Shown here one piece after another: positions 7,576 to 29,735 of a DNA stretch of 64,000 bases. The notes under the pieces were generated by a model. That model did no database searches, had not been told where the DNA came from, and was given only the letters and a program-made list of their open reading frames with translations. Source of the DNA: Sulfurimonas sp. Lineage in GTDB: Bacteria > Campylobacterota > Campylobacteria > Campylobacterales > Sulfurimonadaceae. Where the stretch lies: the NCBI GenBank assembly GCA_028044295.1, contig JAOFSE010000010.1, positions 1-64,000 of the forward strand, written 5' to 3'. The position numbers were made by a program, and so were the translations under genes. Positions within the stretch are counted from its first letter, which is position 1, and each line of letters opens with the position of its first letter.

Positions 7576-7577
7576 AC

Positions 7578-7619
7578 CTCTAGAGATCTTCCTCTAGGGC
7601 ACTCTATAATAATATTTTT
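7578..7619 (+). terminator. Possible terminator hairpin
   Basis: An 8-bp stem with 6-nt loop (CTCTAGAG-ATCTTC-CTCTAGGG, including one G-T pair) follows the VWA-CsgG stop codon. T5 comes only ~15 nt later, so this is not a classic terminator. Confidence 0.35.
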
Positions 7620-10721: not shown

Positions 10722-10833
10722 CTACTGGTTGCTAACAACACGCTTACACACTTATCACTCTCAACCCTTTTTGATAATTATATCTTATAGGTATATAATT
10801 ATTATTTTTATATATTTATTAAGTATTTAAGCA

Positions 10834-10839
10834 TATAAT
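10834..10839 (+). promoter_or_regulatory. Putative -10 box
   Basis: TATAAT lies 17 nt before the ATG at 10857, inside a 135-bp AT-rich gap after moxR. An AAAGGAA Shine-Dalgarno lies between them. Confidence 0.4.
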
Positions 10840-10856
10840 ATGTCAAAAGGAATCAC

Positions 10857-12731: not shown

Positions 12732-12908
12732 TACTCTTTCTCTGTTACATCTAAAAAGCTAGTATCCCAAACTTTAATACTGCCGTCCATACTAAACTTA
12801 TGAACCATTGACATATCTTCTATATTAAGCAGGCATTACTCTAGCACTACAACTCGCTAAAAAAACTAATACTGCAATAAGTAAACTAACATTTATTAAA
12901 TTTTTCAT
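12728..12908 (-). pseudogene. Deletion remnant of a propeller-lipoprotein paralogue
   Basis: Reading the minus strand from 12908 gives a lipoprotein signal (MKNLINVSLLIAVLVFLASC) that ends in a stop after SARVMPA. In another frame just downstream it gives MSMVHKFSMDGSIKVWDTSFLDVTEKEY, ending at 12728. The second piece matches the extreme C-termini of the three full paralogues in this window (SADGSVKVWELGIVDFIDKEY; FLDIASKEY). The middle ~800 codons are missing. This is best read as an internal deletion that left both ends of a fourth paralogue. It lies immediately downstream of a full paralogue on the same strand, so deletion after tandem duplication is plausible. Confidence 0.75.
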
Positions 12909-12921
12909 TTCTTTCCTTTTT

Positions 12922-15546
12922 TTATTGAGATACATACTCTTTATCGATAAAGTCTACGATACCTAGTTCCCATACTTTTACACTACCATCAGCACTTTGA
13001 GTTACTGCTATGTCCTCTCCTGCAACCATTCTACCTATTACACCGTTGTGTTCATTGAAATCTTTAATTAACTTCATATCTTTTAATCTAAATAAGAAGG
13101 CTTTACTCTCATCTGTATTTACTACAACATAATTATCTTTTACAAACTCTATATTAGATACATTTCCTAGTGAATCAATAGTAGCTTGAATTTCCTTATC
13201 TTTTATATTGTACAAATGAAGTTTTGAAAATCCGATAAATGCATATTCTGATAAAAGGCAATACCCAAGTGCATAATCACAAGTACCCTGGTTCATAACA
13301 ATTCCATCGATTTTAATTTCATCGATTTTTTCAGTTGTATCTTTATCAAAAAAGTGAAGTGTTGTATATTTACTCTGTGCTGTATTAGCTGCTCTTTTAA
13401 ATATATTAGTTTCATCTGTATTTTCTAAAACACCAACAACTTTTTCATCATTACTCCAGAGTGTGTGAATCTCCCTTCCATTTTCGGCATCAATCACTAA
13501 TTTATTTGTACCATCATTTTTTCTAAGGTAACATTGGTTTGGAGCATCATCTGGTGAATACAAAAATGACTTACCATCATCTAAAGCGTATACTATTGCA
13601 TGAGGATGAGGCTTACCTACAGTAATTTCTTCTTCATTTATATCAACACCATTAGCATTAATAACTGTTCCATCTTTTGTGTTAATAAAAAATGTTTTTT
13701 CATCGTTAAATATATTTCCTTTTGTTACTATGATACTATATTCATCATCCAGTTTTGATGTGTGAATCATAGGTCTAGATAAAAATCTAGTTAAAAAGTT
13801 AAAATCTCTAAATTTCACTTTATTTACAAGGACACCATTATAATCATACATTAGAAGTTCATCATGGTCTGTTACTGCTAGAACTTTTTTGTTTTTAGAA
13901 CTCACATACAAGTATCGTACTTCATTATTAATATTTTCTATTGTAGTAATATCCTCATAAGTTTTCGAATCCTTTAGAATTATGTCATTACCATCTAACC
14001 AGTATATAACTGACTTGTCTTTAGATATACCTAAAGAATATAAAATGTTTCGAGTTGCGACACCTGCTGTCCAAGACCATGTTTTAGGTGAGTGTGATAT
14101 TCCATTTATGTGGTCTGTATATAAAATTTTTAAACCACTTTCTTTCATACTAGATCCATAAGTTCCATAAAGTTTTGTCTCTGGTATAGGCTCATCCACA
14201 TTATCAATTGTTAATGCTAAATTATAATTAAAGTCTTTTGGTAAATTTAAAACACCCCAAAAACCAGCATAATCCATAACGGTGTACGTAAACTCCGTAA
14301 ATAACTCTGAACTATCAAGTTGAAGGTTTAGAGCTTTTGAAGCTATTTTTGATTGTATCTCCGCATTATAATTAGCTTTTCCTCTAAAGTGAAATCCCTT
14401 ACCAGTTTTTTCAATTGAGCCAATACTTATGCCTAATGTATTTAAAGTGTTATTGTATATATTTAACTGGGTCATTAAAAGTGTATCTGGTAAACTATTT
14501 TTTAAAGACAAATTAATTTCTTTGGCTTGACTAGGTGTTAGTTTATCAAATATATAGGCTTTAGATATATAAGAGTTTTTATATAGAACATTTATTGTTT
14601 CTTGATTTATAGGCTCTGTATAAAGAATTTGTTTTGTTTCGTATTCTCTCCACTGTTTAGATGATCTAACAGATTTTATCTGCTGATCAATCTCTAAAAG
14701 TTTACGAGAGTCTTGTGTCTTGTCTTTTTCTTTAATTAGTTTTTCTATCTCAACCTGTATATTATACTTATATACTTTTCCAGTAGCAGACCCATCATTG
14801 TTATCAGTTATAACTCTAAACTCTTCATCTTCTTTTAACATTTTCTTTCTATCTATAGCTATATATTCTGGAATCTCTATCTGTAATGCACTAATAATGG
14901 CATGGATAATGTCTTCGTTATTTTTTCCATTACTATTTTGCTTTGACAAGTTATAATAAGCGGAATTTCTATCTTTCAAAGATGACTTAACTGTTTTAAA
15001 ACCTTCTAATGTATATATATTACTTTTTAAATCTTCAGGGTTTATCCATATAGCTAATGTTTGACTGGCTTTATCATTACCGCTATTGTCTAATTTACGT
15101 AGCATTGTAGATAGATAAGATTTATTTTTTAATCTACTCTCATATATAGAAGTAAACTCAGCATCTTCCTTAGATGCTAACTTAAAGGGTATATGTTTAA
15201 TTTTTGAATATTTACTTGATATATTTAGTCCACTAAGCTTATCTAAAATAGTTGGATCTTTTGCCATCTTGCTTAAGAATGATGACATCTTTTTAAAAGC
15301 TATAGAACTTTTTTCAATCGGATTTCTATATACAGGACCTATTATAGTTAGTTCTAATTTCTCAGTTTTGTTAAACCACTTTGAATGAGTTTCAGAAATC
15401 TTTTGTGAGTTAGTGAATGCGTCCTCTATTTCTTGTGAATTTGCCAGTTTAGTTATTCTACCTTGGGAATAATCTGCTTCTTGTGGTTTTGCGCCACAGG
15501 CAGCAAACAGAAGTATCATTAAACTATATATTATTATTTTATACAT
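12922..15546 (-). CDS. Large envelope lipoprotein, propeller-like C-terminus (paralogue A)
   Basis: This 874-aa lipoprotein (signal ends in LFAAC) is one of three full paralogues here. The conserved N-terminal domain (~50-450) has KLELTIIGPVYRNPIEKS, LAIWINPEDLKSNIYTLEGFK, IPEYIAIDRKKMLKEDEEFRVITDN and REYETKQILYTEPI. It includes a coiled-coil-like stretch (IEKLIKEKDKTQDSRKLLEIDQQIKSV). The C-terminal ~400 residues are repetitive beta sequence with WD40-like ends (TQSADGSVKVWELG), suggesting a propeller. I know no function for the N-terminal domain. It is transcribed opposite to its neighbours, from a divergent promoter region shared with the ABC permease. The Shine-Dalgarno is AAAGG, 6 nt before ATG. 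Confidence 0.8.
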   Translation of the reverse strand: MYKIIIYSLMILLFAACGAKPQEADYSQGRITKLANSQEIEDAFTNSQKISETHSKWFNKTEKLELTIIGPVYRNPIEKSSIAFKKMSSFLSKMAKDPTILDKLSGLNISSKYSKIKHIPFKLASKEDAEFTSIYESRLKNKSYLSTMLRKLDNSGNDKASQTLAIWINPEDLKSNIYTLEGFKTVKSSLKDRNSAYYNLSKQNSNGKNNEDIIHAIISALQIEIPEYIAIDRKKMLKEDEEFRVITDNNDGSATGKVYKYNIQVEIEKLIKEKDKTQDSRKLLEIDQQIKSVRSSKQWREYETKQILYTEPINQETINVLYKNSYISKAYIFDKLTPSQAKEINLSLKNSLPDTLLMTQLNIYNNTLNTLGISIGSIEKTGKGFHFRGKANYNAEIQSKIASKALNLQLDSSELFTEFTYTVMDYAGFWGVLNLPKDFNYNLALTIDNVDEPIPETKLYGTYGSSMKESGLKILYTDHINGISHSPKTWSWTAGVATRNILYSLGISKDKSVIYWLDGNDIILKDSKTYEDITTIENINNEVRYLYVSSKNKKVLAVTDHDELLMYDYNGVLVNKVKFRDFNFLTRFLSRPMIHTSKLDDEYSIIVTKGNIFNDEKTFFINTKDGTVINANGVDINEEEITVGKPHPHAIVYALDDGKSFLYSPDDAPNQCYLRKNDGTNKLVIDAENGREIHTLWSNDEKVVGVLENTDETNIFKRAANTAQSKYTTLHFFDKDTTEKIDEIKIDGIVMNQGTCDYALGYCLLSEYAFIGFSKLHLYNIKDKEIQATIDSLGNVSNIEFVKDNYVVVNTDESKAFLFRLKDMKLIKDFNEHNGVIGRMVAGEDIAVTQSADGSVKVWELGIVDFIDKEYVSQ

Positions 15547-15661
15547 GTAAACACCTTTTAATAAAAAATTATTATATTAAAAACTATTATAATATATGAT
15601 TAAGATGATATATTATAATTAGTGTATAATATTTTCCAATAAACTGTAGGGAGCTTTATAA
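15547..15661. promoter_or_regulatory. Divergent promoter region between paralogue A and the ABC/FGE genes
   Basis: This 115-bp, very AT-rich gap separates divergent genes. On + there is TATAAT at 15625-15630 with TAGGGAG before the GTG start at 15662. On - there is TATAAT at 15586-15591, about 40 nt before the ATG at 15546. No recognisable operator is seen. Confidence 0.45.
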
Positions 15662-16774
15662 GTGCAAACCAGTAAAATCATACTAAAACTCCTTTACAAG
15701 TCTTCTAACTGGCTTTTAAAATTATCTTTTTTAGCACTACCTATTGCACTTTTATTATCTATGTCTTCTTATCTGTTTATTAGTAATGTTTTAGATAGTT
15801 ATGAGAACTATCTTGTAAAGTCTTACATTGGTATTCAAGGTCGTGTAAGTATTGAAAGTAAAGATAAAAAATTTATTGATGATGTAGTAGAATACTCCAA
15901 AAAAGAGGGTCTTACTTTTTCTACAAAAAAAGAGCTAAAAACATCACTTGTGTTTTTAGGAGATAGACAGATTCCTAAGTATGCTAAGTTTATAGTTCTT
16001 GACTTAGAGTATTTAAAGAGTAAGTTTAAAAACTTACATGTAAAAACAAATACCATCTTTGTAAATAAAACTTTTTCAAACTCATTAGGTTCTTTAGACA
16101 TAAGCAGTTTTAAACAGTGTTACTTTGATGACGAAGAGAACGTTTTCGATATAGAGAGTATATTAACTGTCGATACAGGTTTTTTAACATCAGAACCAGT
16201 TATATTTGTAAGCTCAGAGTTTGCAAGAAATATTTTTGGTGATACTAAAAGCTCTATGGTTAAAGTTGAATTTTTAGAATCTAATGAAGAAAGTATCACG
16301 AAAATTAAAGACAACTCAGAAGCGATTGCTAAAAAGAATAATACCATGGAGTTTAAAATCCACGACCTTATAGAAGATACCAAGAGTACAAGAGAGTTCT
16401 TCGAAAAAGTATCGCTCATTCAAAATGCGATATCCATACTTATATTTATACTTTCAATGGGGATTATTCTTCTGAGTATATCAATCTCTGTAGAGTTTAA
16501 GAAAAATTCCCTTAAAACACTACAGCTTATTGGAATGAGTGCCCGTGATTTGTCTTCTACTATTAGCTTAAGTATCTTTAGCATGATTATGGTTGTTCTT
16601 GTTCTATGTGTTTTTATGCAAAAAATATTTCAAAGTATGTTTTTAAAAGCTTCGGGTTTTAGTAATGGTTTTTTTACACCTCTCGCTCTTGAAAATATAT
16701 ACTACATAGTTTTACTAGCATTCATACTGTTGTTTATAAATAACAGTATAACTAGATACGTGTTTTCGAGGTAA
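15662..16774 (+). CDS. ABC transporter permease, MacB/LolC-type (first of two)
   Basis: The GTG start has Shine-Dalgarno TAGGGAG. This 370-aa protein has one N-terminal membrane segment (~20-45; LSFLALPIALLLSMSSYLFISNVL), a ~200-residue periplasmic domain, and three C-terminal segments (~255-280, ~300-325, ~345-368) with the FtsX-type cytoplasmic loop (VEFKKNSLKTLQLIGMSARDL). That is the topology of MacB/LolC/FtsX permeases, which work by mechanotransmission or lipoprotein extraction and not classical import. It pairs with the ATPase at 17541 and the second permease at 18245, making a heterodimeric LolCDE-like set. The FGE-like gene lies between, 2 bp downstream. Confidence 0.8.
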   Translation: MQTSKIILKLLYKSSNWLLKLSFLALPIALLLSMSSYLFISNVLDSYENYLVKSYIGIQGRVSIESKDKKFIDDVVEYSKKEGLTFSTKKELKTSLVFLGDRQIPKYAKFIVLDLEYLKSKFKNLHVKTNTIFVNKTFSNSLGSLDISSFKQCYFDDEENVFDIESILTVDTGFLTSEPVIFVSSEFARNIFGDTKSSMVKVEFLESNEESITKIKDNSEAIAKKNNTMEFKIHDLIEDTKSTREFFEKVSLIQNAISILIFILSMGIILLSISISVEFKKNSLKTLQLIGMSARDLSSTISLSIFSMIMVVLVLCVFMQKIFQSMFLKASGFSNGFFTPLALENIYYIVLLAFILLFINNSITRYVFSR

Positions 16775-16776
16775 CT

Positions 16777-17544
16777 ATGAGACTCTTTAGTATACTTGTT
16801 TTAATCATATGCTCTTTAAACGCTTTAGAGTTAGAAAGAATCACTATAGAGTCTAGTGAAAAAATATCTATCCCCCAGTTACATAATACTACTTTAGAAG
16901 GACATACTTTTTTTAGTGAGTATGAGGTACTAAAACCTTTTCAAATAGCAAAGTATGAGTTGAGGGTAAAAGAGTATATAGACTATTTAAAAGTAACTAA
17001 ACAAGAAGGGCTTTTAAAGTCTATATTGTCTTCGGATATTGAACAAAATGAACCTGTCACAAACATAGGTTTTAACCAAGCGAAAGATACATGTATATTT
17101 TATGGAGGAAGGCTTCCAAGTGAGTTAGAGTGGGTAGTGTCAGCAAGTATAAAACTAGCTCCTTCTAAATGCTATGAACATTTAAAAACAAACACATTTC
17201 ACACAACAGCAATAGATAACTTTTCATCTACATGTATGTTAGAAGAAGATGATGAGTTTGAAGCTGAACTAGTAGGTAGTGAACTTTTAGATGTTGATAT
17301 GTCAGTTGAAAATATAAATGGTACATATGGAATGTACGCAAACGTATGGGAGTGGGTTGACTCTAGTGTAAAAATTTTTAGAGATGAGTATAGAGTTATA
17401 AAAGGTGGAAGTTATGCCAACTTTAAAACGCCAGAACTATTTGACTCAAGAGTAACAAACTTTTTAAACGAAGATGCCAAGCTGCAAAACGTTGGTTTTA
17501 GATGTGCATGGGATATAAATAGAGATGAAAAGAGTACTAAATGA
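16777..17544 (+). CDS. Periplasmic FGE-sulfatase-like protein
   Basis: A signal peptide (MRLFSILVLIICSLNALEL) precedes an FGE/SUMF1-type domain over most of the 255 aa. Markers are FQIAKYELRVKEYIDYL, EPVTNIGFNQAKDTCIFYGGRLPSELEWVVSA, NGTYGMYANVWEWVDSS, YRVIKGGSYANF and LQNVGFRCAWD. True formylglycine-generating enzymes need a Cys pair (or metal-binding Cys) near the active site. I cannot confirm one here, so a binding (C-type-lectin-like) role is as likely as catalysis. It is encoded inside a MacB/LolCDE-type operon, with a 4-bp ATGA overlap to the ATPase, which strongly suggests a functional link to that transporter. Confidence 0.85.
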   Translation: MRLFSILVLIICSLNALELERITIESSEKISIPQLHNTTLEGHTFFSEYEVLKPFQIAKYELRVKEYIDYLKVTKQEGLLKSILSSDIEQNEPVTNIGFNQAKDTCIFYGGRLPSELEWVVSASIKLAPSKCYEHLKTNTFHTTAIDNFSSTCMLEEDDEFEAELVGSELLDVDMSVENINGTYGMYANVWEWVDSSVKIFRDEYRVIKGGSYANFKTPELFDSRVTNFLNEDAKLQNVGFRCAWDINRDEKSTK

Positions 17545-18260
17545 TAAACGCAAAAAGATTAACTAAATCATTCAAGAGTCATGATGGTAATGATGAAACT
17601 ATATTTAAAGAGTTGGACTTTCATGCTAAGGCTGGAGAGTTCACAGTTATACAGGGTAAAAGTGGAAGCGGTAAGACAACTCTACTAAATATCATATCTA
17701 CCATAGATGATGTAAATAGTGATGCTCAGCTATACATAAACTCTCAAGATATAGGTATTTTAAACGAGCATGAAAGAGCTAAGTTTAGAGCTAAAAACAT
17801 AGGTTTTATTTTTCAGTCTTATGCTTTGATTCCAGAGTTTAACCTAATTGAAAACTGTATCATCCCTCTCACGATGGCTGGAGTTGATAAAGGTGCTGCT
17901 ATAGAACGTGCTAAAAAGATTACAAGGGAGCTTATTCATGACGCAGATGATGCTTTTTGTTTAAAGTACCCTACACAGTTAAGTGGTGGACAACAACAAC
18001 GTGTAGCTATCGCTAGAGCACTGATTCACGAACCTAAAATCATCATTGCAGATGAGCCAACAGCAAACCTAGATGAAGAGAGTGCTACAGAGGTTAAGAA
18101 GTGGCTTCAAAAGCTTGCACATGAACAAGATATATGTGTAATAGTTGTGACACATGAAAAAGATTATTTAAACTACGGAGACACTCTTTATGAGTTTGTT
18201 CCAAGTGGAAATGATGATATAAAATCAACGCTAAAAGAACCTAAATGTTTGCAAAACTAA
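17541..18260 (+). CDS. ABC transporter ATPase, LolD/MacB-type
   Basis: This 239-aa ATPase has Walker A GKSGSGKTTLLN (~40), a Q-loop in FIFQSYALIPEFNLIENC, signature LSGGQQQRVAIARAL, Walker B IIIADEPTANLDEES and H-loop VVTHEKDY. The LIPEFNLIENCIIPL stretch and the compact size are typical of LolD/MacB/FtsE ATPases. It overlaps the FGE-like gene by 4 bp and the second permease by 16 bp. It is cytoplasmic and would energise the two flanking permeases. The substrate is unknown; outer-membrane lipoproteins encoded in the same cassette are an obvious guess. Confidence 0.92.
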   Translation: MINAKRLTKSFKSHDGNDETIFKELDFHAKAGEFTVIQGKSGSGKTTLLNIISTIDDVNSDAQLYINSQDIGILNEHERAKFRAKNIGFIFQSYALIPEFNLIENCIIPLTMAGVDKGAAIERAKKITRELIHDADDAFCLKYPTQLSGGQQQRVAIARALIHEPKIIIADEPTANLDEESATEVKKWLQKLAHEQDICVIVVTHEKDYLNYGDTLYEFVPSGNDDIKSTLKEPKCLQN

Positions 18261-19426
18261 AAATAGTCCTTAGACTTTTTAGAAAGTCCTTTGCTTTTGT
18301 TGGGGTGCTTTACTTTATAGCTTTGGTAATGTTCTTGAGTGTTATAGAGTTAAAAGAGAGCTATAAGTTAAATCTCCAAAATGAGTTCGCAACAAAACAG
18401 CCACATGTAAAAGTAACTTTTATAGATGACAATACGATGGCAGATAAGTTGAAGGTAGATAAACTAAAAAATGAAATTATTTTGATATCTAGTCTGATTG
18501 AAAAGGTTTCGGAATTTGTAAGTTCGAAAAAGTTTTATAGTTCTGTTGGGTCAAAAGAGGGTGGAAACTCTCAGTACCAAGGAGACATCAAAGTTATAGG
18601 CTTAAGCAGTACGGAGTTTGTTTATGACTTCTTTGAAGCAGAGTTTACTTCACGAGCTCCATTTACTGTACCTTATACTCCTGTTGAGTTCTTGTATGCT
18701 TTTAAAAAAGAGAGTAACAGTGTAGTTTTTAACAGTGCGCTTTTTAACTCATACTTTCCAGCCATAGCTACTATGGAGAATTTTTACTTTGTAAATGGGT
18801 CTGTAAAAATAAAAACAAAATCTTTAGCACGTTTTGATGACTATGATAAGCAACCCATTTTATATACAAATATTGACATGGCAAATAAGATGTTAAATAA
18901 CCCTAAAAATAAGATAGATGGTTTTTTCGTAAATGCTAAAAATTTAGAAGATATAGATAAACTGACAAAGATACTTAAAGAGAGACTTCCGAGTGATACT
19001 TACATAGTTAAATCATGGCTAGAAGATAGACAAAAACAATTTATGATGTTTAACATATTTGAGGTCTTGTCGTTTGTAATAGTTGCTATAATCATTTCCC
19101 TATCTCTTCTGTTCATCATGTTGATGCTTTATGACGCGATAGTCAAAAAAAGTTACCATCTCTCAGTACTGTTAACTATAGGTTTTAGGTTAAAGAGGGA
19201 AATATTTACTTTCATAGTTCTCATAATGCTTATAGACACAGTGCTGGTTTTGAGCTTTATAAACTACACTTTACCAGAGTTGACAAGCTACCTTAGTTTA
19301 CCATTCTCTCACAGCATGATTATAGATAGTAGTGTATACTTAGGACTTATAAATATTTTCTTTTTAGTAATAAGCTATATACTAATAAACAGTTCGTATG
19401 GACTAAAGGCTAAAAGTATTTTTTAA
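18245..19426 (+). CDS. ABC transporter permease, MacB/LolE-type (second of two)
   Basis: This 393-aa permease has the same one-plus-three membrane layout as the gene at 15662: an N-terminal segment (~14-32; FAFVGVLYFIALVMFLSVIEL), a periplasmic domain to ~270, then three C-terminal segments (VLSFVIVAIIISLSLLFIMLML; FTFIVLIMLIDTVLVLSF; LGLINIFFLVISYIL). The coupling loop (YHLSVLLTIGFRLKREIFTF) matches FtsX-type permeases. It shares little obvious sequence with the first permease, so the transporter would be a heterodimer. It overlaps the ATPase by 16 bp and is followed 19 bp later by paralogue B. Confidence 0.8.
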   Translation: MFAKLKIVLRLFRKSFAFVGVLYFIALVMFLSVIELKESYKLNLQNEFATKQPHVKVTFIDDNTMADKLKVDKLKNEIILISSLIEKVSEFVSSKKFYSSVGSKEGGNSQYQGDIKVIGLSSTEFVYDFFEAEFTSRAPFTVPYTPVEFLYAFKKESNSVVFNSALFNSYFPAIATMENFYFVNGSVKIKTKSLARFDDYDKQPILYTNIDMANKMLNNPKNKIDGFFVNAKNLEDIDKLTKILKERLPSDTYIVKSWLEDRQKQFMMFNIFEVLSFVIVAIIISLSLLFIMLMLYDAIVKKSYHLSVLLTIGFRLKREIFTFIVLIMLIDTVLVLSFINYTLPELTSYLSLPFSHSMIIDSSVYLGLINIFFLVISYILINSSYGLKAKSIF

Positions 19427-19445
19427 ATCAAAAAAGGAATGGGTA

Positions 19446-21893
19446 ATGATTAAAAGTTTATTTATAGTTATAGTAGGAGCATTTATAGCGGGATGTTCTG
19501 CATTGAGTCCATTTCCAGAAGTCAACAAAATAAAAGGGGCAGAATATAAAAATGCCAAGATTTCCAAGCCATCAAACTACAAAGAAGTACAAAATGCTTT
19601 TAAAACATCCAAGCTTACACATGAGAGTTATTCAAGATGGTATGACAGGAAAGAGAAACTAGAACTTACAATAGTAGGCCCAGTTTATAAAAACCCATCT
19701 GAAAAAGAGTCAGAAGCATATACTAAGCTCAATAGTTTTTTAAAAAAACTGTCTCCTGAACTTTTAGAAAAACTTGGAGAAAATGAACTAGCTTCTCGTT
19801 ACTCAAAAATAAACTATGTGCCATATAAGCTAGGCTCTAAAGAAGACACAAAGTTTGAAGCAGTGTATGCTAATAAACTAGAGTCCAAAGATAAAATAAG
19901 TGATATTTTACAAAACATAAACTCTCAAGGAGTAGATACTCCAGAGCAGTCTTTAGCTATATGGATTAATCCTAAAGATCTAAAAAATAATATTTATACT
20001 CTAGAGGGGTATAAAGCAGTTAAAACAACTACAAAGAAAAGAAACTCATACTACTATCAACTTTCAAAACAAAACTCTAAAGGTGTAGAAGATGAAAATA
20101 TACTAAATGCAGTCTTAGCCATTCTAAAACTTTCTATTCCTGAGTATGTAAGTATTGATAGAAAAGATATGCTTAAAAATGGTGAAACATTTAGAATCAT
20201 AACAGATAATGATGAAGGTGGAACAACTGGGGAAGTATATAAACTAGAAGCCGATAGAGATATAAGCGAGTTAAAAAGGTTGAAAATAAAAACAAAAGAT
20301 GTTGAAAAACTTGCTGAAATAGATAAAGAGATTAAAGCTGTTAAAGAGTCAAAGAAATGGAGAGAGTATGAGACAAAACAACTTATTTATACGTCTGCAG
20401 TCTCACAAAATACGATCAACACTCTGTTTAGACACAAATATATTTCTCAAGCATATAGTCATAATACTTTAGATATTACACAAGCTAAAGAAGTTGGTGA
20501 ACCTATACATATGTCTTTAGTAGACCCATTCTTAATGATAGCTTTTGAACATTATAGAGTAGTTCTTAATGAACTTGGGATTAATGTTGGAACAATTAAA
20601 AGTATTGGAAAAGCTTATTATCTATTAGGAGAAAATAAGAACACTAAGTATAAAGATAAAAAAGTTAGTGGTGATGACTCATGGAAAGTTTTTTTCCTGC
20701 CAGGATTTAAACAAGCAATTATAGATGCTTCAAAAGAAGATGGAAAAGTAGAAGAGCTAACACAAAAAGGTGTGTTTTATGGAATGAGTACTCTAACAGA
20801 TGAAAATGCTTATAAAAAAGTTCATAAAAATGAGTATGTATCATTTGGAGTAGAAAGTAAACATATAACTTCAACTAAAAATGACATCATAGGACTTGGT
20901 GTTGGAAGCAATCTTATTAGTTACTATTTACAAGAGTCAAAGGAGATTAAGGTATGTGATTCTAGGAAAGGATTTGAATGTATAAGTTATCCTATTGGGA
21001 ATAGCTTACGTGGTAAAGACAACATTCTTACTGCTCTTTCATCTGATGAGTCTAAAGTGATCATATATGCTGATAAATTAAATAGTGACTCAATCATTCA
21101 AGTGCTCTCACTAGATAGTGGAAAAATAATACATCAAAAACAACAAATGACAAATCAAGGTTCATTTTTAATAGTCTCAGATGATGGAAGATACTTTGCT
21201 ATTTCAGGAAATGAACAGATAGAGCTTTATGATGCTAAAACGTACAGATTATTACATACATTTAAAGGAAGTACAACTCCTCCTGTTTTTAGCGATAAAG
21301 GAAATATCATTGCAATAGGTGGTTTAAGCTTAATTAGCCCAAATATGATTATAGAAGGTAGTCGTAAAGACTTTAAATTGGATATATATAGTACTGATCA
21401 GTACAATCTGATAAATAGTTATGAAGTTCCAAATGCTTACAGAAGAATTGTTGATAATATGGCTATTACAGTTACATCAGCTTTTACATTACCATTTTAT
21501 ATGCTTGAAGATGAAAAAGTGCTCTATTTTGGAATTGGTGCTAGTAGATGTGTAAAGTGGAATTATGAAACTGGTGTTAGTGAACAGAGTGACCAAATTC
21601 CAGGACAACCTATGTATGGAGCAATAGCTTTTACTATTCCAGGTCCTAACAAAAAATACCATCTCATAAATCATGTTTCAACGTCTAATGGGAGATTTTA
21701 CATATACGATAGAGATTCAAAACAATTTGATTTAAGTTACTTTTATGAAGGTATGGGCGTCCCAATATTTATGAAAAATGGTAGATATATCGTTTTGGAA
21801 AATAAAACTTTCAGGACATCGACAGAGCTTGTATCCACAGCTATTAAAGTTTATGATACTGCTATTCTAGATGTAGCGAAAGGGGAGTTCTAA
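19446..21893 (+). CDS. Large envelope lipoprotein, propeller-like C-terminus (paralogue B)
   Basis: This 815-aa lipoprotein (lipobox FIAGC) is a close paralogue of the proteins at 12922 and 26521. N-terminal blocks are KLELTIVGPVYKNPSEKESE, LAIWINPKDLKNNIYTLEGYK, SIPEYVSIDRKDMLKNGETF and REYETKQLIYTSAV. The C-terminal half has propeller-like blades (FLIVSDDGRYFAISGNEQIE followed by LYDAKTYRLLHTFKGS). It ends ILDVAKGEF, aligned with the KEY ends of the others. It directly follows the ABC/FGE operon with a 19-bp gap and is probably co-transcribed, suggesting the transporter acts with or on it. Its stop overlaps the stop of the opposing gene by 4 bp. Confidence 0.8.
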   Translation: MIKSLFIVIVGAFIAGCSALSPFPEVNKIKGAEYKNAKISKPSNYKEVQNAFKTSKLTHESYSRWYDRKEKLELTIVGPVYKNPSEKESEAYTKLNSFLKKLSPELLEKLGENELASRYSKINYVPYKLGSKEDTKFEAVYANKLESKDKISDILQNINSQGVDTPEQSLAIWINPKDLKNNIYTLEGYKAVKTTTKKRNSYYYQLSKQNSKGVEDENILNAVLAILKLSIPEYVSIDRKDMLKNGETFRIITDNDEGGTTGEVYKLEADRDISELKRLKIKTKDVEKLAEIDKEIKAVKESKKWREYETKQLIYTSAVSQNTINTLFRHKYISQAYSHNTLDITQAKEVGEPIHMSLVDPFLMIAFEHYRVVLNELGINVGTIKSIGKAYYLLGENKNTKYKDKKVSGDDSWKVFFLPGFKQAIIDASKEDGKVEELTQKGVFYGMSTLTDENAYKKVHKNEYVSFGVESKHITSTKNDIIGLGVGSNLISYYLQESKEIKVCDSRKGFECISYPIGNSLRGKDNILTALSSDESKVIIYADKLNSDSIIQVLSLDSGKIIHQKQQMTNQGSFLIVSDDGRYFAISGNEQIELYDAKTYRLLHTFKGSTTPPVFSDKGNIIAIGGLSLISPNMIIEGSRKDFKLDIYSTDQYNLINSYEVPNAYRRIVDNMAITVTSAFTLPFYMLEDEKVLYFGIGASRCVKWNYETGVSEQSDQIPGQPMYGAIAFTIPGPNKKYHLINHVSTSNGRFYIYDRDSKQFDLSYFYEGMGVPIFMKNGRYIVLENKTFRTSTELVSTAIKVYDTAILDVAKGEF

Positions 21894-23206
21894 TACTTCT
21901 TATTCAACTCTCTATACATATCAAAAAGGTACTCATTAAGTTCACTAGGACTTGATTCGTCGTGAAGTATTTTTATACGAGAGCCATTTTTATATAGCTT
22001 TGCTTTTATTTTGTATGTCTCTATAGTTGTTTCAAGTTGTTGAGAGTAGCTAGTGTATTTTTTTATATCAAATACTAACTTTGTGCTACTCTCTTTACTT
22101 ACGACACCTTTTGACTTGAAGTACTTTGTGATGTTACTTCGTTTATCTGAGTTGATCACTAGCTTGATTGCTTTAGCATTAACAACATTAGAGATTTTAA
22201 AAGGGACAACTTTTTTAGTACAGTCACCTTCACCTAAGCATCTCTCAATCACATCTTGATACTTACCAGTTTTGCCAAATATGTAAATGCCCTCAGAAGT
22301 CTCATCACTTAAGCCTTTTAAAGCTAGGTTTTTCTTGGATGCAATAATGTAAAACTTCACAGGTTTGTTCAGGTCTTCTTCGTAAGCCACAATTCTGTCT
22401 TCATCCTCATTACCAAAAGACAGGAGTTTCTCTTTTTTTACAAATGCTACTCTATTTGACTCATTTGGAAATATCATCTCCACATCAGAGCTAGTTTCAT
22501 AAAAAATATACATGTAGCCATCTTGATTGAGTGAAGCTTCTAGTTGTATGTATTCATCTGGCATGTAAATACTTTTGTTTATCGTTAAGTTGGAGAGTAT
22601 GAGTCCATTTATAAGCTTCTGGAGTCTTGTTTCTATTTTTTTGATGGTATCGTCTACAAAAGCGTTTCTTTTACCTTTAGCAAGTTCTAGGAAGTTTTTT
22701 GCTTTAAAGTACTCTTTATTCTCTATAGCTTTTAATGCCTTGTTTTTTAATGCTTGAAACTCTTGTTTGTCTTTTAACATTTCTCTTCGGATTCTATTTT
22801 CACCAACTCTATCTAAAAGTATAAGTACGTGTAGTCTAAAGTTCTCTTCGCTTTCATCTGACTCTATGAACTCTTTGAGGGGTTTCATATCTAGCATTAG
22901 CTGGTTTGTTTTTGCTTTTACATTTGTTGTAGTGTTAAGTGTTTTTTGATTATTTACTACTTTTTCATTCATTTCAAACGAAGAAGCTATGTTTACACCA
23001 AAGTACTCAGAGACAAAAGAGTAAGCGTTATGCATAGCATCCTCTTTTGCTAACTTTTCCATTCTAGCGTCATTAGTTACATACCAAGAAGATGTACCTC
23101 TAAAGTATTTTCCTTTTGTGTCAGGGTCTTTGATTATCCATTGTGGCATCTCATTGTCTGCACATAAAAGAAGTGTAAATAGCATAAAAAATATTGTACT
23201 TTTCAA
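21890..23206 (-). CDS. Exported LPP20-like / DUF4384-like protein
   Basis: This 438-aa protein has a signal peptide (MKSTIFFMLFTLLLCADN). The N-terminal part (PQWIIKDPDTKGKYFRGTSSWYVTNDARMEKLAKEDAMHNAYSFV) is LPP20-like. A helical region follows (~150-200; LKNKALKAIENKEYFKAKNFLE). At ~205-300 there is a DUF4384-like beta domain (YMPDEYIQLEASLNQDGYMYIFYETSSDVEMIFPNESNR). DUF4384 domains often occur in exported or kinase-associated proteins and are probably binding modules. The Cys in LLLCADN might be a lipobox, but the context (LLC|A) is not clear. It is divergent from the gene at 23275. Confidence 0.7.
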   Translation of the reverse strand: MKSTIFFMLFTLLLCADNEMPQWIIKDPDTKGKYFRGTSSWYVTNDARMEKLAKEDAMHNAYSFVSEYFGVNIASSFEMNEKVVNNQKTLNTTTNVKAKTNQLMLDMKPLKEFIESDESEENFRLHVLILLDRVGENRIRREMLKDKQEFQALKNKALKAIENKEYFKAKNFLELAKGKRNAFVDDTIKKIETRLQKLINGLILSNLTINKSIYMPDEYIQLEASLNQDGYMYIFYETSSDVEMIFPNESNRVAFVKKEKLLSFGNEDEDRIVAYEEDLNKPVKFYIIASKKNLALKGLSDETSEGIYIFGKTGKYQDVIERCLGEGDCTKKVVPFKISNVVNAKAIKLVINSDKRSNITKYFKSKGVVSKESSTKLVFDIKKYTSYSQQLETTIETYKIKAKLYKNGSRIKILHDESSPSELNEYLFDMYRELNKKY

Positions 23207-23234
23207 TCATAATCCTATTAAAATATTTATTTGT

Positions 23235-23240
23235 TATAAT
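23235..23240 (+). promoter_or_regulatory. Putative -10 box
   Basis: TATAAT lies in the 68-bp divergent gap, about 35 nt before the ATG at 23275. A TAGGAA Shine-Dalgarno follows. Confidence 0.4.
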
Positions 23241-23274
23241 AACACATTAAATTTTAAATTGTTAGGAATTAACT

Positions 23275-24552
23275 ATGATAAAAAAACTTTTTCTTATAAC
23301 TCTTACTAGTATTTCTATACTGCACGCTAGTTACTACACATCTTTGGATAGCCGTTTAAGCGAAGAAAAAGTACTAACTTTTGAAGATAAATCAACTTTA
23401 CATGTAACTTCTAATGGTGTAGAACTCAAGTCGTTTAAAGATAGTAGTTGGCTAAGCAACTCTAGTGAAATAAAAGAGTTTAGAGAGATACCTGATGATG
23501 GGAAAAAATATAGTGTTTATAACTTAGCATATGTTTTGAAAAATATAGTTTCAAAGAAAAAGTTTATCCTTAAAATTCCATCTGGATATCTAAGAGTTAA
23601 AACAGACCTTGATACAAAAGAGATATATTCACCATTGTTATCAAGAGATGTAAAAACAAGGTCTTATAGCTATGAAGTTGAAAAAGCTTATGACTCAAAT
23701 GGAAAAAAGATCAAGATAAAAAATGACGACATACTTACTAAGTACTTAGACAGAAATGGAAACCTAGTAGCACTTGAAGTAATGGATGAGGGTGTTAAAG
23801 GTGTAAAGAAAGTTTACTCTAAAGAGATTGCTCAGTATGAACAAGAAAAAGAGAAAAGACCAGTGTTTGCAAACAAATTTGATTTTGCTAATGAGACACT
23901 TTATCTAACTTACGTAAGTAAAGACGAGACATCTACAAAAAGAATGAATATCTCATATGAGATGAAAAAGAAAAATACAAAAGTAGTTTTAAAAGCTCCT
24001 ATCTCTCTTTTTGATCCAGAGTATAAAGGTACGAGTAGCAGTGAACACGTTGGTCTTTTTAGAGATACGAAAAAAGCACTCTTTGAGATGAAAAAAGTTC
24101 AAATAGTTGATGGTGGTATAGAACTTTCATGGTTGAACCATCCAAAAAAGAAAGTCGTACAAGTTCAGTATGTAAGTAATGGTGAAAAAGATAAAAAACT
24201 ATTATCAAAAGTATCAGGTCAACAGTTTTACTCTGTGGAAGGTATCATATATCTCGTTAGTTGGATGCACCTAAGCAACAAAGATAATCTTGTAGTAACT
24301 TTTATGAATGGATCACTTCCATTTGATGTAACTATGACAAAGACATCTGACAACTCTTATGAGATGCAGAAAAAGGGACAAACTATCTATGCGTATACTG
24401 TAAATAAAAATGGATTTGTAAAAAGCATAGACTACCCAGCATATAAGATAAACATAATGCTTGAAGATGCTCAAAATGACACTACTGTTGCAAATAAAAA
24501 GTACTTAGAAAACTTTGTAAGACAAAACAGCATTCACTATGTTAAGGATTAG
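23275..24552 (+). CDS. Exported protein of unknown function
   Basis: This 425-aa protein has a signal peptide (MIKKLFLITLTSISILHAS). The rest alternates short strands and turns (KKKFILKIPSGYLRVKTDLDTK; ENLTYVSKDE-like repeats; KKVVQVQYVSNGEKDKK), suggesting beta domains. I recognise no family and see no catalytic motif or lipobox. It is followed by the split lipoprotein gene after 4 bp, so it probably heads the 23.3-29.7 kb transcription unit that ends in the DUF58/bat genes. A periplasmic role in the same system is inferred from position only. Confidence 0.7.
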   Translation: MIKKLFLITLTSISILHASYYTSLDSRLSEEKVLTFEDKSTLHVTSNGVELKSFKDSSWLSNSSEIKEFREIPDDGKKYSVYNLAYVLKNIVSKKKFILKIPSGYLRVKTDLDTKEIYSPLLSRDVKTRSYSYEVEKAYDSNGKKIKIKNDDILTKYLDRNGNLVALEVMDEGVKGVKKVYSKEIAQYEQEKEKRPVFANKFDFANETLYLTYVSKDETSTKRMNISYEMKKKNTKVVLKAPISLFDPEYKGTSSSEHVGLFRDTKKALFEMKKVQIVDGGIELSWLNHPKKKVVQVQYVSNGEKDKKLLSKVSGQQFYSVEGIIYLVSWMHLSNKDNLVVTFMNGSLPFDVTMTKTSDNSYEMQKKGQTIYAYTVNKNGFVKSIDYPAYKINIMLEDAQNDTTVANKKYLENFVRQNSIHYVKD

Positions 24553-24556
24553 TACT

Positions 24557-25647
24557 TTGAGATTTTTACATGTAAGTTTATTTATTTTGATAGCTACTCT
24601 TTTTATAGGGTGTCAAAAAAACTGTTAAACCAGCTTCAAACAAGGCAGTCAGCACTCAAAAAGTTTCAGAAATGTCTGTGATGAGTATTTTAGATGATGC
24701 AGATGAAGAAGAAGAGACAGAATCTGACGACGGGAAAGAGTTGTATTTCTCAGACACTAAAGGAAAAGTCTTTTATACAAAACATAGTGGAAATAAAACA
24801 GAGTTTAGAACTCAAGTACTACTAAATGCACTATTTAGTGAAGCAAAAAGTTCTCTTCCAAAAGTTAGCCGTAAAAAGAAACTAAACATATCACTAGAAG
24901 TTGGAAAAAACTCTGTTTTAAGAGATGACATTTTAAATGCTGCTCAAAGCTTTATACTAAAAAACAGAAGATATCAACTTGCTAACACGGACTCAAAAAC
25001 TATGAAGATTTTAAGGCGTGTACTTAAGAGTGAGAAAGACAGTATCTATAACGGCAGAGCTTCCATAAAAACAAAGAAAAAATCTGACGTCATACTTTTT
25101 TTAAATGCTAAAAAGACTAAAGAGAAGATAATTATTAGAGCTAAAATTATCTCTAAAAAATGGAACTATCCTAGCTAAAAGAATTAATGAGAATTACATC
25201 ACAAACAGTGTCGCAAAAAACAAAGAGTGGGTAGAAGTAAATGTACCAAGAAACAATGGAGCAACTCAGAGCTTTGAAGTACTAAGAGATGCTGTTTCAC
25301 TTACGAAGTACTCTGGAGTTGTTTCTAATAAATCTGTATCTAACGTAGCATTTGTTGCTGCTAGTAGATACTGTCAAGAAAAACTTCAGTCTCAACTTAT
25401 GACTCCATATGTATTTGAAAACTCTAGAAAGTCTCTTTCTATCTCTCGTCCAACATCCCCTATTACCGTAGAGATAATTGCACCATACGATGAAGATGAA
25501 GAAGACATATACTACATAGCTGGTGATAATATTGATGGCGGAGATTCATCTATTATTACTTACCACTGGAACTCTGAGAAGTACTTCTCAGTATCAAATC
25601 TTTTTAAGTCTAAAAATGCAACTTTTAGATGTATGAGGGCAAAATAA
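24557..25647 (+). CDS. Lipoprotein with CsgG-like middle and FGE-like tail (two frameshifts in this sequence)
   Basis: A TTG start (AAGGA 8 nt upstream) gives MRFLHVSLFILIATLFIGCQK, a lipoprotein signal. The frame is lost at an A7 run (24615-24621). The track ORF 24672-25178 follows, and the frame is lost again at an A6 run (25155-25160), leading to ORF 25399-25647. Deleting one A at each site gives one ~363-aa protein. Its start (GCQKTVKPASNK) and end (TPYVFENSRK ... NATFRCMRAK) match the intact lipoprotein at 29041 (GCQKTNVQAPKK; TPYVFEHARR; MGFRCYK). The middle (AAQSFILKNRRYQLANTDS) looks like a CsgG/LpoB-type domain. It could be a pseudogene, but the pattern of A-run errors elsewhere argues it is intact. 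Confidence 0.65.
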
Positions 25648-26501
25648 TGAAAATATTTTTAACACTACTAATGGTCTTTAGTCTCTCAAGTGCGAAAGAC
25701 AATATCTCTCTCTCCAAACTTTTAGTGAAGTTTCAAGGAAATGAGTTCAACCTTCTTTTAGCACCAAAACATATTGTAATGTCATCTAAAAAGAAAAAGA
25801 CTAAAAAGGCTGTAAACAAAGGCTATAAAAGAGCAGTTTCAGAACTTATAAGACTAGTAAAAATAAGAGACTTAGACCTAAATATAAAAGCTTTTAAGCC
25901 AAGTGGCTCAAACCTGCAACAGTACTTAGATGAGGATTCTCAAACATACTCAATACTAAAAGAGATGCTCATAGCACAGGTCACACTCAGTGAATCTTTT
26001 AAAGAAGATGAAGAGTTGTCATCAGTTGCCGAGAGTGTTAGTACTCAAGTAGATGCTAGTGATATAGATATGGACATGGACTTAGGTGATGATGCATTTG
26101 ATATTACAGATGACAAAGCTACAAGTGGTTCTATGGTAAATGTGTCTCCTGCGGAAGCTTTTAAGACTTCATTTGTGGAAATGAGTGAGCTTTACAACCA
26201 AGAGGTACTACAACTAAGCCAAGCACTACACCCTTTTAATGTAAAAGGAAAGCCAAAGATGAAAAATATTCACTCCGTTTTTGGTATGGCATTTTTTCCA
26301 ACTAAAAAAGGTGCTATAAAAAACATGAGAATTTACATAGTTCTTTGTAACATAAACACTGAACAACAACAAAGTGCACAAATAGTAGCAAAAGAGATAA
26401 ACACATTTAGATGGGACAGAAACCATCTCTACATCTCAGGTGCAACAGGAAAGATACTCAGACAAGTAGTTTCTGGTGTTTTAGGTGAGTCGTTTTTATA
26501 A
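25647..26501 (+). CDS. Exported protein of unknown function
   Basis: I choose ATG 25647 (MKIFLTLLMVFSLSSAKDN) over the track start at 25629. It gives a signal peptide directly and overlaps the previous stop as TAATG. The 284-aa product has a Lys-rich segment (SSKKKKTKKAVNKGYKRAV), an acidic middle (~145-165; VDASDIDMDMDLGDDAFDI) and a C-terminal domain (FGMAFFPTKKGAIKNMRIYIVLCN). I recognise no family. It lies tightly between the CsgG/FGE-like lipoprotein and paralogue C, so it is probably part of the same envelope system. Confidence 0.7.
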   Translation: MKIFLTLLMVFSLSSAKDNISLSKLLVKFQGNEFNLLLAPKHIVMSSKKKKTKKAVNKGYKRAVSELIRLVKIRDLDLNIKAFKPSGSNLQQYLDEDSQTYSILKEMLIAQVTLSESFKEDEELSSVAESVSTQVDASDIDMDMDLGDDAFDITDDKATSGSMVNVSPAEAFKTSFVEMSELYNQEVLQLSQALHPFNVKGKPKMKNIHSVFGMAFFPTKKGAIKNMRIYIVLCNINTEQQQSAQIVAKEINTFRWDRNHLYISGATGKILRQVVSGVLGESFL

Positions 26502-26520
26502 AATATACTAAGGAATATCA

Positions 26521-29010
26521 ATGAAAAAATTTCTACATGTAAGTTTCATAATCGCAGTTTTATTAACAATAGTAGGCTGTGGAGGTGGTGCCCCTAAAGT
26601 ATCACAACAACAAGCCCAAATAAAAAAACCAGCAAACTACGAAAAAGTACAAGCAGCTTTTAAAGACTCTTTGAATGTTTATAATTCTCATTCAAGATGG
26701 TATCAAGACAAAGAACAACTTGAACTTACTATTGTAGGACCCGTGTATAAAAACCCTATTGAAAAAGAGAGTAAGGCTTACAAGAAACTAGCAACACTAC
26801 TTAAAAAAATAGCTAAAGATAAAACTATACTAGATAAACTAAGTAACTCTGATATTTCCAAAAGATACTCTAAAGTAAACTATGTACCTTACAAGCTTGG
26901 TTCACAAGAAGATGCAACCTTTAGTGCTGTGTATGAACAACGTCTTGACAGTAAAGATAAACTAACTCAAACGCTTCAACAACTTGGGGGTAATGGTGTA
27001 GACAGAGTAGGACAAACATTAGCTATATGGATAAATTCTGATGATTTAAAAAACAACATGTACACTCTTGAAGGTTATAAAACTGTAAAGAACTCAACAA
27101 AGAACAGAAACTCAGCTTACTATCATCTATCTAAGGCAAAAAGTAATGGTACAAACAACCAAGAGATAATAAACGCTGTTCTTGCAACTCTACAACTTAG
27201 TATCCCAGAGTATGTAGCAATAGACAGAAAAGATATGTTAAAACAGGGTGAGACATTTAGAATCATTACTGATAACCCAGATGGTACAGCTACTGGTAAA
27301 GTATATAAGTTTGATATTGAATCTGAAGTTGATAATCTAAATGAAGAAAAAGCAAAAACAACAGATCTAAATAAACTAAAAGAACTTGATCGTCAGATAG
27401 TAGCAGTAAAAGCCTCAAAAGCATGGCGGGAATATGAAACAAAACAACTTCTTTATACTACACCAGTTAACCAAGAGGATATAAACGTATTAAATAAATA
27501 CAAATATACAAATACAACTAAGACATTTAACCAACTCACAACAACTGATGCAAATGAAATTAGTAAAGCACTTCACTATGCATTACCAGACCCATTTTTA
27601 ATGGTTACGTTTGAGCAATATAGAATGTTACTAAATCAACTTGAAATGAATATAGGTGGTATAGATAACGTTCTAAAGGCCCATTACATTAGAGGAATTA
27701 ATGCAAAAGAATCAAAAGAAAAACTTTCAAATAATGTTTCAGATGCTCTATACGACTTTTCTCTAAATATTCCTATAATTCAATACGTAACAATTGGGCA
27801 TATGGCATATGATGCTCTTGACGATGCTGAAGCGGTGAATAGGATAGTAGAAGATAAACAGTACTCATATTTCTTTGGATGTAGTAAACATAATGTCAAA
27901 AATGAAGGTTTACAGCTAATAAACAAGGTAAATCTTGCCAATATAGACTTTGGTTTAGTTCTTAGAGAAAATAATAATGATGAATTTATATACACAGCTA
28001 TCAATAAAGATGAAACACTAATCTTTACAGTAAATAAAAAGAAAAACGGGCAACAAATAGGTTATTTAAAAGATGTTTTAACTATGAGAACCCTTCAAGA
28101 GTTTCATAATTTACCAAAAATAAATCGGGTTTTTGAATTTAAAACTTTCTCAAGAAAAATGTATCAAAAAATTCAGTTTGGAGCTAATAATCATACTGTA
28201 CTTTTATTTACAGGTAGAAATATTGAACTATATGATTTAAAACAAAATAAAGTAGTGCGTACTTTCAGTAATGGAGGTGAAGATGTTAAATTTATGAAGG
28301 TAAGCCCTAATGGAAAATACCTGTTGGCAGGTTTATCTGGAAAAATAAGGCTATGGAACTATAAAACAGCACAACTTTTAAAAGAATTTTCTAAAGACAC
28401 GGATATAGCAGGACTTTTCAAAAAAACTTTAATACCATCTGGGTACTTCTTTACTTATGGTCTTCTTGAGGATGACCCTCAAGACTATTTGAAAGCTAAC
28501 TTTACCAAAGATAATGAAATTTTATTTTTTGGAAACAAAATTTCATTAATAGATCCAGAAACATTAAGAAGAAGTGTACTCGTAGAAACTGATAGTATGT
28601 GGCAAGATGGTTATATAACAGATGAAAATATATTAAAAGCACAAAAGATTAATACTACTATGACAACTAAAAAACAAAGTAAAGGTGCTTCTCAAACAAT
28701 TTCCTTTGACATGAAAACAAAAAAAACCATAAAGTCTATGGACTTGCCTGGTATTACTGTATATGATTTCTTTTTAGATTCAAGAAATGAAAGAGCATTA
28801 ACAATGGATGAAGGAACTATGGTGGGAAATGGTGAAAATTTAAATATTATAGATATTAAAACTGGAGAAATAATATATAATATTTTACTTACTGGATATC
28901 CAAATATGGTTATACCAAGTTCAAAAGGAAGATTTTTAACGGTATATACTGATGAAAGTACAAGTTTTTTTGACCTTTCATTTTTAGATATTGCGAGTAA
29001 AGAGTATTAA
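26521..29010 (+). CDS. Large envelope lipoprotein, propeller-like C-terminus (paralogue C)
   Basis: This 829-aa lipoprotein (lipobox IVGC, followed by GGGAPK) is the third full paralogue. N-terminal blocks are QLELTIVGPVYKNPIEKESK, LAIWINSDDLKNNMYTLEGYK, SIPEYVAIDRKDMLKQGETF and REYETKQLLYTTPV. A coiled-coil-like piece (VDNLNEEKAKTTDLNKLKELDRQI) sits mid-domain. The C-terminal half has WD40-like blades (VSPNGKYLLAGLSGKIRLWN) and ends FLDIASKEY. The first ~350 residues are far better conserved among A, B and C than the propellers, suggesting a shared core interaction and variable ligands. It is followed 30 bp later by the FGE-like lipoprotein. Confidence 0.8.
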   Translation: MKKFLHVSFIIAVLLTIVGCGGGAPKVSQQQAQIKKPANYEKVQAAFKDSLNVYNSHSRWYQDKEQLELTIVGPVYKNPIEKESKAYKKLATLLKKIAKDKTILDKLSNSDISKRYSKVNYVPYKLGSQEDATFSAVYEQRLDSKDKLTQTLQQLGGNGVDRVGQTLAIWINSDDLKNNMYTLEGYKTVKNSTKNRNSAYYHLSKAKSNGTNNQEIINAVLATLQLSIPEYVAIDRKDMLKQGETFRIITDNPDGTATGKVYKFDIESEVDNLNEEKAKTTDLNKLKELDRQIVAVKASKAWREYETKQLLYTTPVNQEDINVLNKYKYTNTTKTFNQLTTTDANEISKALHYALPDPFLMVTFEQYRMLLNQLEMNIGGIDNVLKAHYIRGINAKESKEKLSNNVSDALYDFSLNIPIIQYVTIGHMAYDALDDAEAVNRIVEDKQYSYFFGCSKHNVKNEGLQLINKVNLANIDFGLVLRENNNDEFIYTAINKDETLIFTVNKKKNGQQIGYLKDVLTMRTLQEFHNLPKINRVFEFKTFSRKMYQKIQFGANNHTVLLFTGRNIELYDLKQNKVVRTFSNGGEDVKFMKVSPNGKYLLAGLSGKIRLWNYKTAQLLKEFSKDTDIAGLFKKTLIPSGYFFTYGLLEDDPQDYLKANFTKDNEILFFGNKISLIDPETLRRSVLVETDSMWQDGYITDENILKAQKINTTMTTKKQSKGASQTISFDMKTKKTIKSMDLPGITVYDFFLDSRNERALTMDEGTMVGNGENLNIIDIKTGEIIYNILLTGYPNMVIPSSKGRFLTVYTDESTSFFDLSFLDIASKEY

Positions 29011-29040
29011 AACTATATATTTCAAAAAAGGAAAGTAGAA

Positions 29041-29697
29041 ATGAAAATAATACTACTTATTATAAGTATTTTAGTAGCTTTTAGTGGCTGTCAAAAGACA
29101 AATGTACAAGCTCCTAAAAAGGTTATAGTTCTAGAACCTAAAGAACAAGTAGATATGAGTAGTCTTTTTGAAGCGGAAAAAGAAGAAGAAGACGATAGTC
29201 TTTACTTTCAAGGTTCTAAAGGCAAGGTTTATGATGCTAGCACATCATCATCACAGCTAAAATGGCTAAGAGTGAGAGTACCTCACACTAACAGTAGAAA
29301 TGGCACAACTTTTAAAGTAATGTCTAGAGTAGTTACAAAAAAAGAGTTCTTGGGAAGTGGTTCAACAAAAGAGCCCATGACAAACATAAGCTACGAAGCT
29401 GCTAACAACTTTTGTAGTGTGAAGTTTGATGGAGCAGTTCTCTCAACTCCATATGTGTTTGAACATGCAAGAAGAAATAGCCTACTTAAAAAGCCGAAAA
29501 ACAAAGACTTCATCGAGATGGTAGCTCCCGTAGACTATGAAGACTTTGATGATACTTTTAAGAGAAAAGGTGATAAGTTAGAGTCTTCAGATGAAGATGT
29601 GTCTACTATGATTATATTTAGATGGGACACTCAAAAGTATTACACTATTTCATTAAGCTATAAGTCATCAGACATGGGCTTTAGATGCTATAAGTAG
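29041..29697 (+). CDS. Lipoprotein with degenerate FGE-like domain
   Basis: This 218-aa lipoprotein (VAFSGC) has a short acidic linker (FEAEKEEEDDSLYF) and then a domain whose landmarks parallel the FGE-like protein at 16777: EPMTNISYEAANNFC (versus EPVTNIGFNQAKDTC), AVLSTPYVFEHARR (versus GRLPSELEWVVSAS) and MGFRCYK (versus VGFRCAWD). The WEW and KGGS motifs of FGE are missing, so catalysis is unlikely. A binding role for a degenerate FGE/C-type-lectin fold is inferred. It is a shorter relative of the split gene at 24557 and lacks that gene's CsgG-like middle. It is the last cassette gene before DUF58. Confidence 0.65.
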   Translation: MKIILLIISILVAFSGCQKTNVQAPKKVIVLEPKEQVDMSSLFEAEKEEEDDSLYFQGSKGKVYDASTSSSQLKWLRVRVPHTNSRNGTTFKVMSRVVTKKEFLGSGSTKEPMTNISYEAANNFCSVKFDGAVLSTPYVFEHARRNSLLKKPKNKDFIEMVAPVDYEDFDDTFKRKGDKLESSDEDVSTMIIFRWDTQKYYTISLSYKSSDMGFRCYK

Positions 29698-29735
29698 TGA
29701 CCATTCATTAACCACTAATTGTTATACTTTTGCCA

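Follow-up and report, generated by a model that had tools for sequence, protein, structure and literature searches.

The window analysed here, a stretch of 64,000 nucleotides from a Sulfurimonas genome (assembled in 34 contigs, 1.91 Mb), carries three long lipoprotein genes between moxR and a DUF58 gene, in a segment of the following composition:

9774-10721, plus strand: moxR, the left neighbour of the insertion and part of the host operon
10722-29729: inserted stretch of 19.0 kb, separating moxR from the DUF58 gene
12922-15546, minus strand: propeller lipoprotein 1, 874 aa (N-part 14380-15546, C-part 12922-14379)
19446-21893, plus strand: propeller lipoprotein 2, 815 aa (N-part 19446-20630, C-part 20631-21893)
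26521-29010, plus strand: propeller lipoprotein 3, 829 aa (N-part 26521-27696, C-part 27697-29010)
29730-30566, plus strand: DUF58 gene, the right neighbour of the insertion and part of the host operon, followed by vWA genes

In all 12 same-genus loci checked, moxR and the DUF58 gene are neighbours, about 20 bp apart at most, so that everything that separates the two in the window is extra, the three lipoprotein genes and those that surround them included. No direct repeat of at least 9 bp flanks the insertion, no repeats or integrase were seen at its ends, and G+C content shows no clear shift (31.4 vs 32.3%). A functional moxR neighbourhood for the lipoproteins was considered and is rejected on synteny. 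Immediately 5' of moxR (7713-9712) lie genes for CsgG/LpoB-like, TPR and LPP20-like proteins, which are found at the corresponding position in one relative (G004) and are absent there in three others that were read.

The preliminary description had presented the three lipoproteins as paralogues that begin with a lipobox, and they do align from end to end. Its motif blocks (LAIWIN, YTLEGYK, IPEYVAIDRK and REYETKQ) are present, with small substitutions in the gene at 12922. An alignment by eye places an invariant cysteine at the lipobox of all three copies (FAAC, IAGC, IVGC); the same position is a cysteine in 11 of 12 aligned family N-termini, the exception being L032:11865, and we infer that the proteins are lipid-anchored in the envelope. 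Within the N-part of lipoprotein 3, a region that we call N1 extends to about residue 265, a helical hairpin spans residues 265 to 300 or so, and a second region, N2, begins near residue 300.

The family is larger than the three genes named earlier. With a profile of N1, nine members are recovered from this genome, of which six lie outside the window:

C1:172531 and C1:174958: a tandem pair
C1:272532: single copy, interrupted between N-part and propeller by a frameshift that yields two overlapping ORFs (L032:9304-11729)
C1:273891: single copy
C29:703: single copy
C34:15138: single copy

A propeller follows the N-part in seven of the nine. Two genes here (L032:11865-14978 and L034:7139-9526) and two in a related genome, G212 (L048:5263, minus strand, and L049:6638), have a clear or weaker WD40 stretch between N1 and N2, and the insertion point corresponds to the position of the helical hairpin in the other copies. 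A second propeller stands after N2 in L032:11865 and L048:5263, while L034:7139 is without a C-terminal one. These alignments suggest that the propellers are modules for which there are two sites; beyond what was described earlier, the head varies in position (hairpin insert, appended, or both) as well as in sequence. Six full-length and two insert-type copies are intact in this genome. In G212 a remnant (L048:8501-8869) lies beside one family gene and another family gene is truncated (L050:5541-6107), both being signs of the birth and death of family genes.

The three window copies end in DKEYVSQ, KGEF and SKEY. A KEY-type terminus had been noted along with the WD40-like blades; an acidic-aromatic tail does exist, but it is not simply the propeller's end, because L034:7139-9526 keeps it (VVDKEY) without a C-terminal propeller. 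The tail thus seems to belong to the conserved frame, and it is possible that it serves in recognition. An acidic and an aromatic residue end nine of the 11 readable C-termini in the family (KEY, GEF, DEF, SDF and ADF; for example at 29002-29010 in the window).

The contrast in conservation between the two halves, also noted in the preliminary description, is pronounced. Among the three window copies the N-parts are 47-56% identical and the C-parts 23-26%, and in nucleotide windows identity falls sharply near residue 390, at the border between them. The same holds for the seven copies with appended propellers, in which the N-part (N1 and N2) is 47-83% identical and the C-part 23-40%, in all 21 pairs. 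For the closest pairs the N-part gives a dN of 0.10-0.16 and a dS of 0.85-1.05, with dN/dS of about 0.11-0.17, and is under purifying selection. In the C-part dN is 0.5-1.0, which is near saturation, and relaxed constraint instead of diversification could be the cause of its fast divergence. The two halves do not always point to the same nearest relative: the gene at 26521 is closest to C1:174958 in its N-part (83%) and to C1:272532 in its C-part (40%; BLAST E about 1e-85), while C1:174958 and its tandem partner C1:172531 have another C-type in common (E about 1e-39). Such patterns are suggestive of mosaicism and of a possible exchange of heads among copies, part of which strong differences in rate could also produce.

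Neither N1 nor N2 matched anything in Pfam, NCBIfam or the PDB sequences, whether searched singly or as profiles, in keeping with the earlier statement that this domain could not be assigned to any known family. The propeller assignment of the C-part, also made earlier, is borne out at the level of sequence profiles. A family profile of the C-part (A8) matches WD40 structures in the PDB (best 2ymu_A, E 5.5e-30) and aligns with the clear WD40 propellers of paralogues (hhalign probability 98.6, E 1.3e-15), while single C-parts give sub-threshold, partial WD40 matches only. An HMM of the WD40 blade, made from paralogues whose repeats are clear, failed to separate the window C-parts from shuffled sequences, whereas the family profile did so. 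AlphaFold2 models made from the three window sequences only have a mean pLDDT of 41.3 for the N-domain and 37.2 at full length, too low to be usable.

Around the lipoprotein genes the insertion carries a set of genes whose products are a LolC/FtsX-like ABC transporter (ATPase and two permeases), one FGE-like and one DUF4384 protein, and three proteins of no assigned class. The genes are listed here with their identity to counterparts in G212 and in a third genome, G177:

15662-16774, plus strand: permease 1, with an FtsX-like C-terminus (sub-threshold); orthologue in G212 44%, in G177 28%
16777-17544, plus strand: FGE-like protein (Pfam FGE-sulfatase, E 4.1e-19); G212 46%, G177 32%
17541-18260, plus strand: ABC ATPase with Walker A, signature and Walker B intact; G212 63%, G177 41%
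18245-19426, plus strand: permease 2, LolC/E-like; a full-length orthologue in G212 and a distant one in G177
21890-23206, minus strand: DUF4384 protein; orthologue in G212 37% over 421 aa
23275-24552, plus strand: unclassified exported protein of 425 aa; G212 39%, G177 24%
24609-25644, plus strand: acidic lipoprotein with an FGE-like tail (by eye); 40% and 48% to G212
25629-26501, plus strand: unclassified exported protein of 290 aa; G212 42%, G177 27%
29041-29697, plus strand: second, shorter acidic lipoprotein with an FGE-like tail; tblastn 39% to the G212 gene, 32% to G177

The FGE-like protein begins with a hydrophobic signal and is of a C-type-lectin-related fold. Permease 2 scores 27.9 bits (E 1e-6) against the LolC/E equivalog, for which the cut-off is 362; a separate LolC-like gene at C1:197511 scores 239.5 bits, also below the cut-off, and since this far better match is found elsewhere in the genome, permease 2 represents an extra LolC/E-like gene. 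Only 19 bases separate it from the lipoprotein gene at 19446. The reading frame of the first acidic lipoprotein is broken at two places in the window and intact in G212 and G177; decay, slippage or an assembly error could account for this. PADLOC returned generic ATPase matches, a marginal hit to permease 1 and, in one of the WD40 paralogues, a repeat match, and nothing else.

Both the lipoproteins and the gene set are rare. The lipoprotein family was found in two of 228 genomes of the GTDB family, namely the window genome and G212, a very patchy distribution, and a profile of the 425-aa protein matched three genomes in the same sample, these two and, less closely, G177 (E 9.5e-16). The association of the lipoproteins with FGE-like and ABC genes, which the preliminary description had proposed as a check, is seen in this sample, both lipoprotein genomes being among the three that carry the gene-set marker. 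Its probability by chance would be about 1.2e-4 if genomes were independent, a figure that ignores relatedness among genomes that are not independent, and the co-occurrence rests on few independent events (two lipoprotein genomes). In G212 the gene set lies at another locus, on contig C23, in near-identical order (DUF4384, permease 1, FGE-like protein, ATPase, permease 2, 425-aa protein, acidic lipoprotein with FGE-like tail, 290-aa-type protein) and with 37-63% identity to the window orthologues; across the three genomes the set is kept at 24-63% identity. In 30 other relatives searched, permease 2 had distant LolC-type matches only, and the FGE-like protein found a match, over 65 residues only, in one of 40 relatives. 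Pattern scans of genome contigs, viral contigs, plasmids and phages found no family members, and samples at order and phylum level, which overlap the GTDB-family set, added none. Weak order-level matches (E 0.004-0.009) covered the signal-peptide end alone and were judged to be chance. In each genome the profile search scores a subset of the candidates only, so that rare, distant members may be missed.

The third genome adds a different kind of variable protein to a divergent version of the same set. Contig C166 of G177 carries genes for the FGE-like protein, a 290-aa-type protein, the acidic lipoprotein, the 425-aa protein, both permeases and the ATPase, with part of a DUF4384-like ORF (sub-threshold) at the contig end. 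Amid these are a reverse transcriptase (E 5.5e-17), an Avd-like gene (E 2.6e-6, below the curated cut-off) and two target genes of the C-type-lectin type Lcl_C; with a template, these make up a complete-looking diversity-generating retroelement (DGR) at L116:4592-7618. Three repeats sharing about 140 conserved bases behave as a template and two variable copies, and within the variable core these copies depart from the template at 16 and 12 positions, of which 14 and 11, respectively, are adenines in the template. Changes specific to A relative to the template are the hallmark of such retroelements, and the locus thus combines a reverse transcriptase, a template repeat and variable repeats with A-specific changes. 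No reverse transcriptase occurs among the ORFs of the window and the paralogue loci that were read. Elsewhere on the contig, the protein encoded at L116:14002-15384 has an N-terminal region in common with the DGR target at 6728-7618, and by eye it carries a CxxCH haem-binding-like motif and not a lectin domain.

Adjoining permease 1 in G177 is a gene for a 583-aa protein with an N1-like start and a C-terminal lectin domain. Its first 190 residues are colinear with N1 (about 165 aa) and include a shared block resembling LTIEGYKTV. The hhalign comparison with N1 gives an E-value of 6e-4 at a probability of 29%; shuffle z-scores are 4.7-6.8 for three of five queries and 2.5-3.3 for the other two; and an HMM search gives E 0.0037 for the best stretch and a whole-sequence E of 2, which is not significant. 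On this marginal homology the protein is probably, though not provenly, a fusion of N1 to a lectin.

Several known systems invite comparison. DGR-diversified outer-membrane lipoproteins have been described in Legionella pneumophila and Treponema denticola (PMC10907252), and the proteins reported here resemble these in combining a conserved lipoprotein base with a variable and putatively ligand-binding head; indeed, the homologous gene set of G177 has a canonical-looking DGR with lectin-fold targets. In the window genome, however, the head is a WD40 propeller and is varied by divergence of paralogues. Like other bacterial WD40 repeat proteins, the family has a C-part that is WD40 by profile, but the propeller is carried by a new N1/N2 lipoprotein module, at either of two positions. 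The transporter recalls LolCDE and type VII ABC systems in having an ATPase and two permeases with LolC/FtsX-like C-termini beside a lipoprotein gene; it differs from LolCDE in falling far below the LolC cut-off, in the presence of a separate LolC-like gene in the genome, and in its linkage to FGE-like and unclassified genes, and identity with LolCDE is excluded by score (27.9 vs 362 bits). A literature search found no paper that describes this combination.

The idea put forward in the preliminary description, of a conserved core with variable heads serving one machine, gains independent support from the co-occurrence with ABC and FGE-like genes and from the retroelement-bearing gene set of G177, although the display function is inferred. 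In our judgement the balance is even on whether the lipoproteins are exchangeable binding subunits of one envelope machine, and this is the reading that we prefer. The constant machine would consist of the ABC transporter, its two LolC/FtsX-like permeases, the FGE-like protein and the accessory lipoproteins, and N1/N2 together with the acidic-aromatic tail may dock on it. The propellers would bind differing ligands outside the cell, such as other cells, phages, surfaces or polymers, and binding or delivery might be coupled to the ABC ATPase, either in placing lipoproteins or in signalling across the envelope. The repertoire would grow by gene duplication and by divergence or replacement of heads, as against retroelement mutagenesis in G177. 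It counts against exchangeable subunits that six of the nine family genes are found at a distance from the gene set. More tentatively, one might recognise a new class of modular display systems, in which a conserved ABC/FGE machine and N1/N2 docking are combined with heads that are, according to lineage, either duplicated WD40 propellers or C-type lectins hypermutated by a retroelement.

The main rival to exchangeable binding subunits is a transporter dedicated to the sorting of lipoproteins, with clients that drift: a specialised Lol-type ABC exporter whose main clients, the large propeller lipoproteins, are structural or enzymatic scaffolds, their heads varying by drift. The likeness of permease 2 to LolC/E, its being additional to the match at C1:197511, and the close spacing between it and the gene at 19446 all speak for such a role, and yet this explanation, which we consider unlikely, accounts neither for a lectin-mutating retroelement in the divergent gene set nor for two alternative propeller sites. 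We give still less weight to a selfish or decaying family, in which duplicates are carried along by mobile DNA and lose their function. The patchy distribution would suit it, as would the frameshift-split copy at L032, the broken gene in the window's own gene set, and the truncated copy and remnant in G212; against this stand purifying selection on the N-part, the number of copies that are intact here (six full-length, two insert-type) and the conservation of the gene set across three genomes.

The position of three copies between moxR and the DUF58 and vWA genes also raises the ternary systems of MoxR, vWA and beta-propeller proteins, in which the propeller is fused to vWA and MoxR often has the P-loop variant GXXXTAKS (PMC7159879). 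The lipoproteins would then belong to a conflict system like that of Kaur et al. 2020, with the adjoining moxR and vWA genes as chaperones, and a secondary match of moxR to bpMoxR (E 6.8e-15) agrees with this, as does the presence of propeller proteins beside such genes. But no fusion joins the window propeller to a vWA protein (cf. PMC7159879) and the P-loop of the window MoxR reads GVPGLAKT; moreover, in all 12 relatives checked, which do not have the lipoproteins, moxR and DUF58 stand side by side as an ordinary pair of genes, the gene sets of G212 and G177 sit elsewhere, and the placement beside moxR is an insertion peculiar to the window genome among those read. The unfused propeller, the differing P-loop and the inserted neighbourhood rule out a ternary system of that type, and the conflict-system explanation, already weakened, strikes us as very improbable.

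The roles of cellular DGR targets in non-pathogens have been called elusive (PMC10907252). Here, a gene set that contains a DGR has DGR-free relatives accompanied by a duplicated propeller family, which provides a natural comparison between different diversifying heads on a shared machine; the comparison names the parts that are conserved, and the three loci offer starting points.
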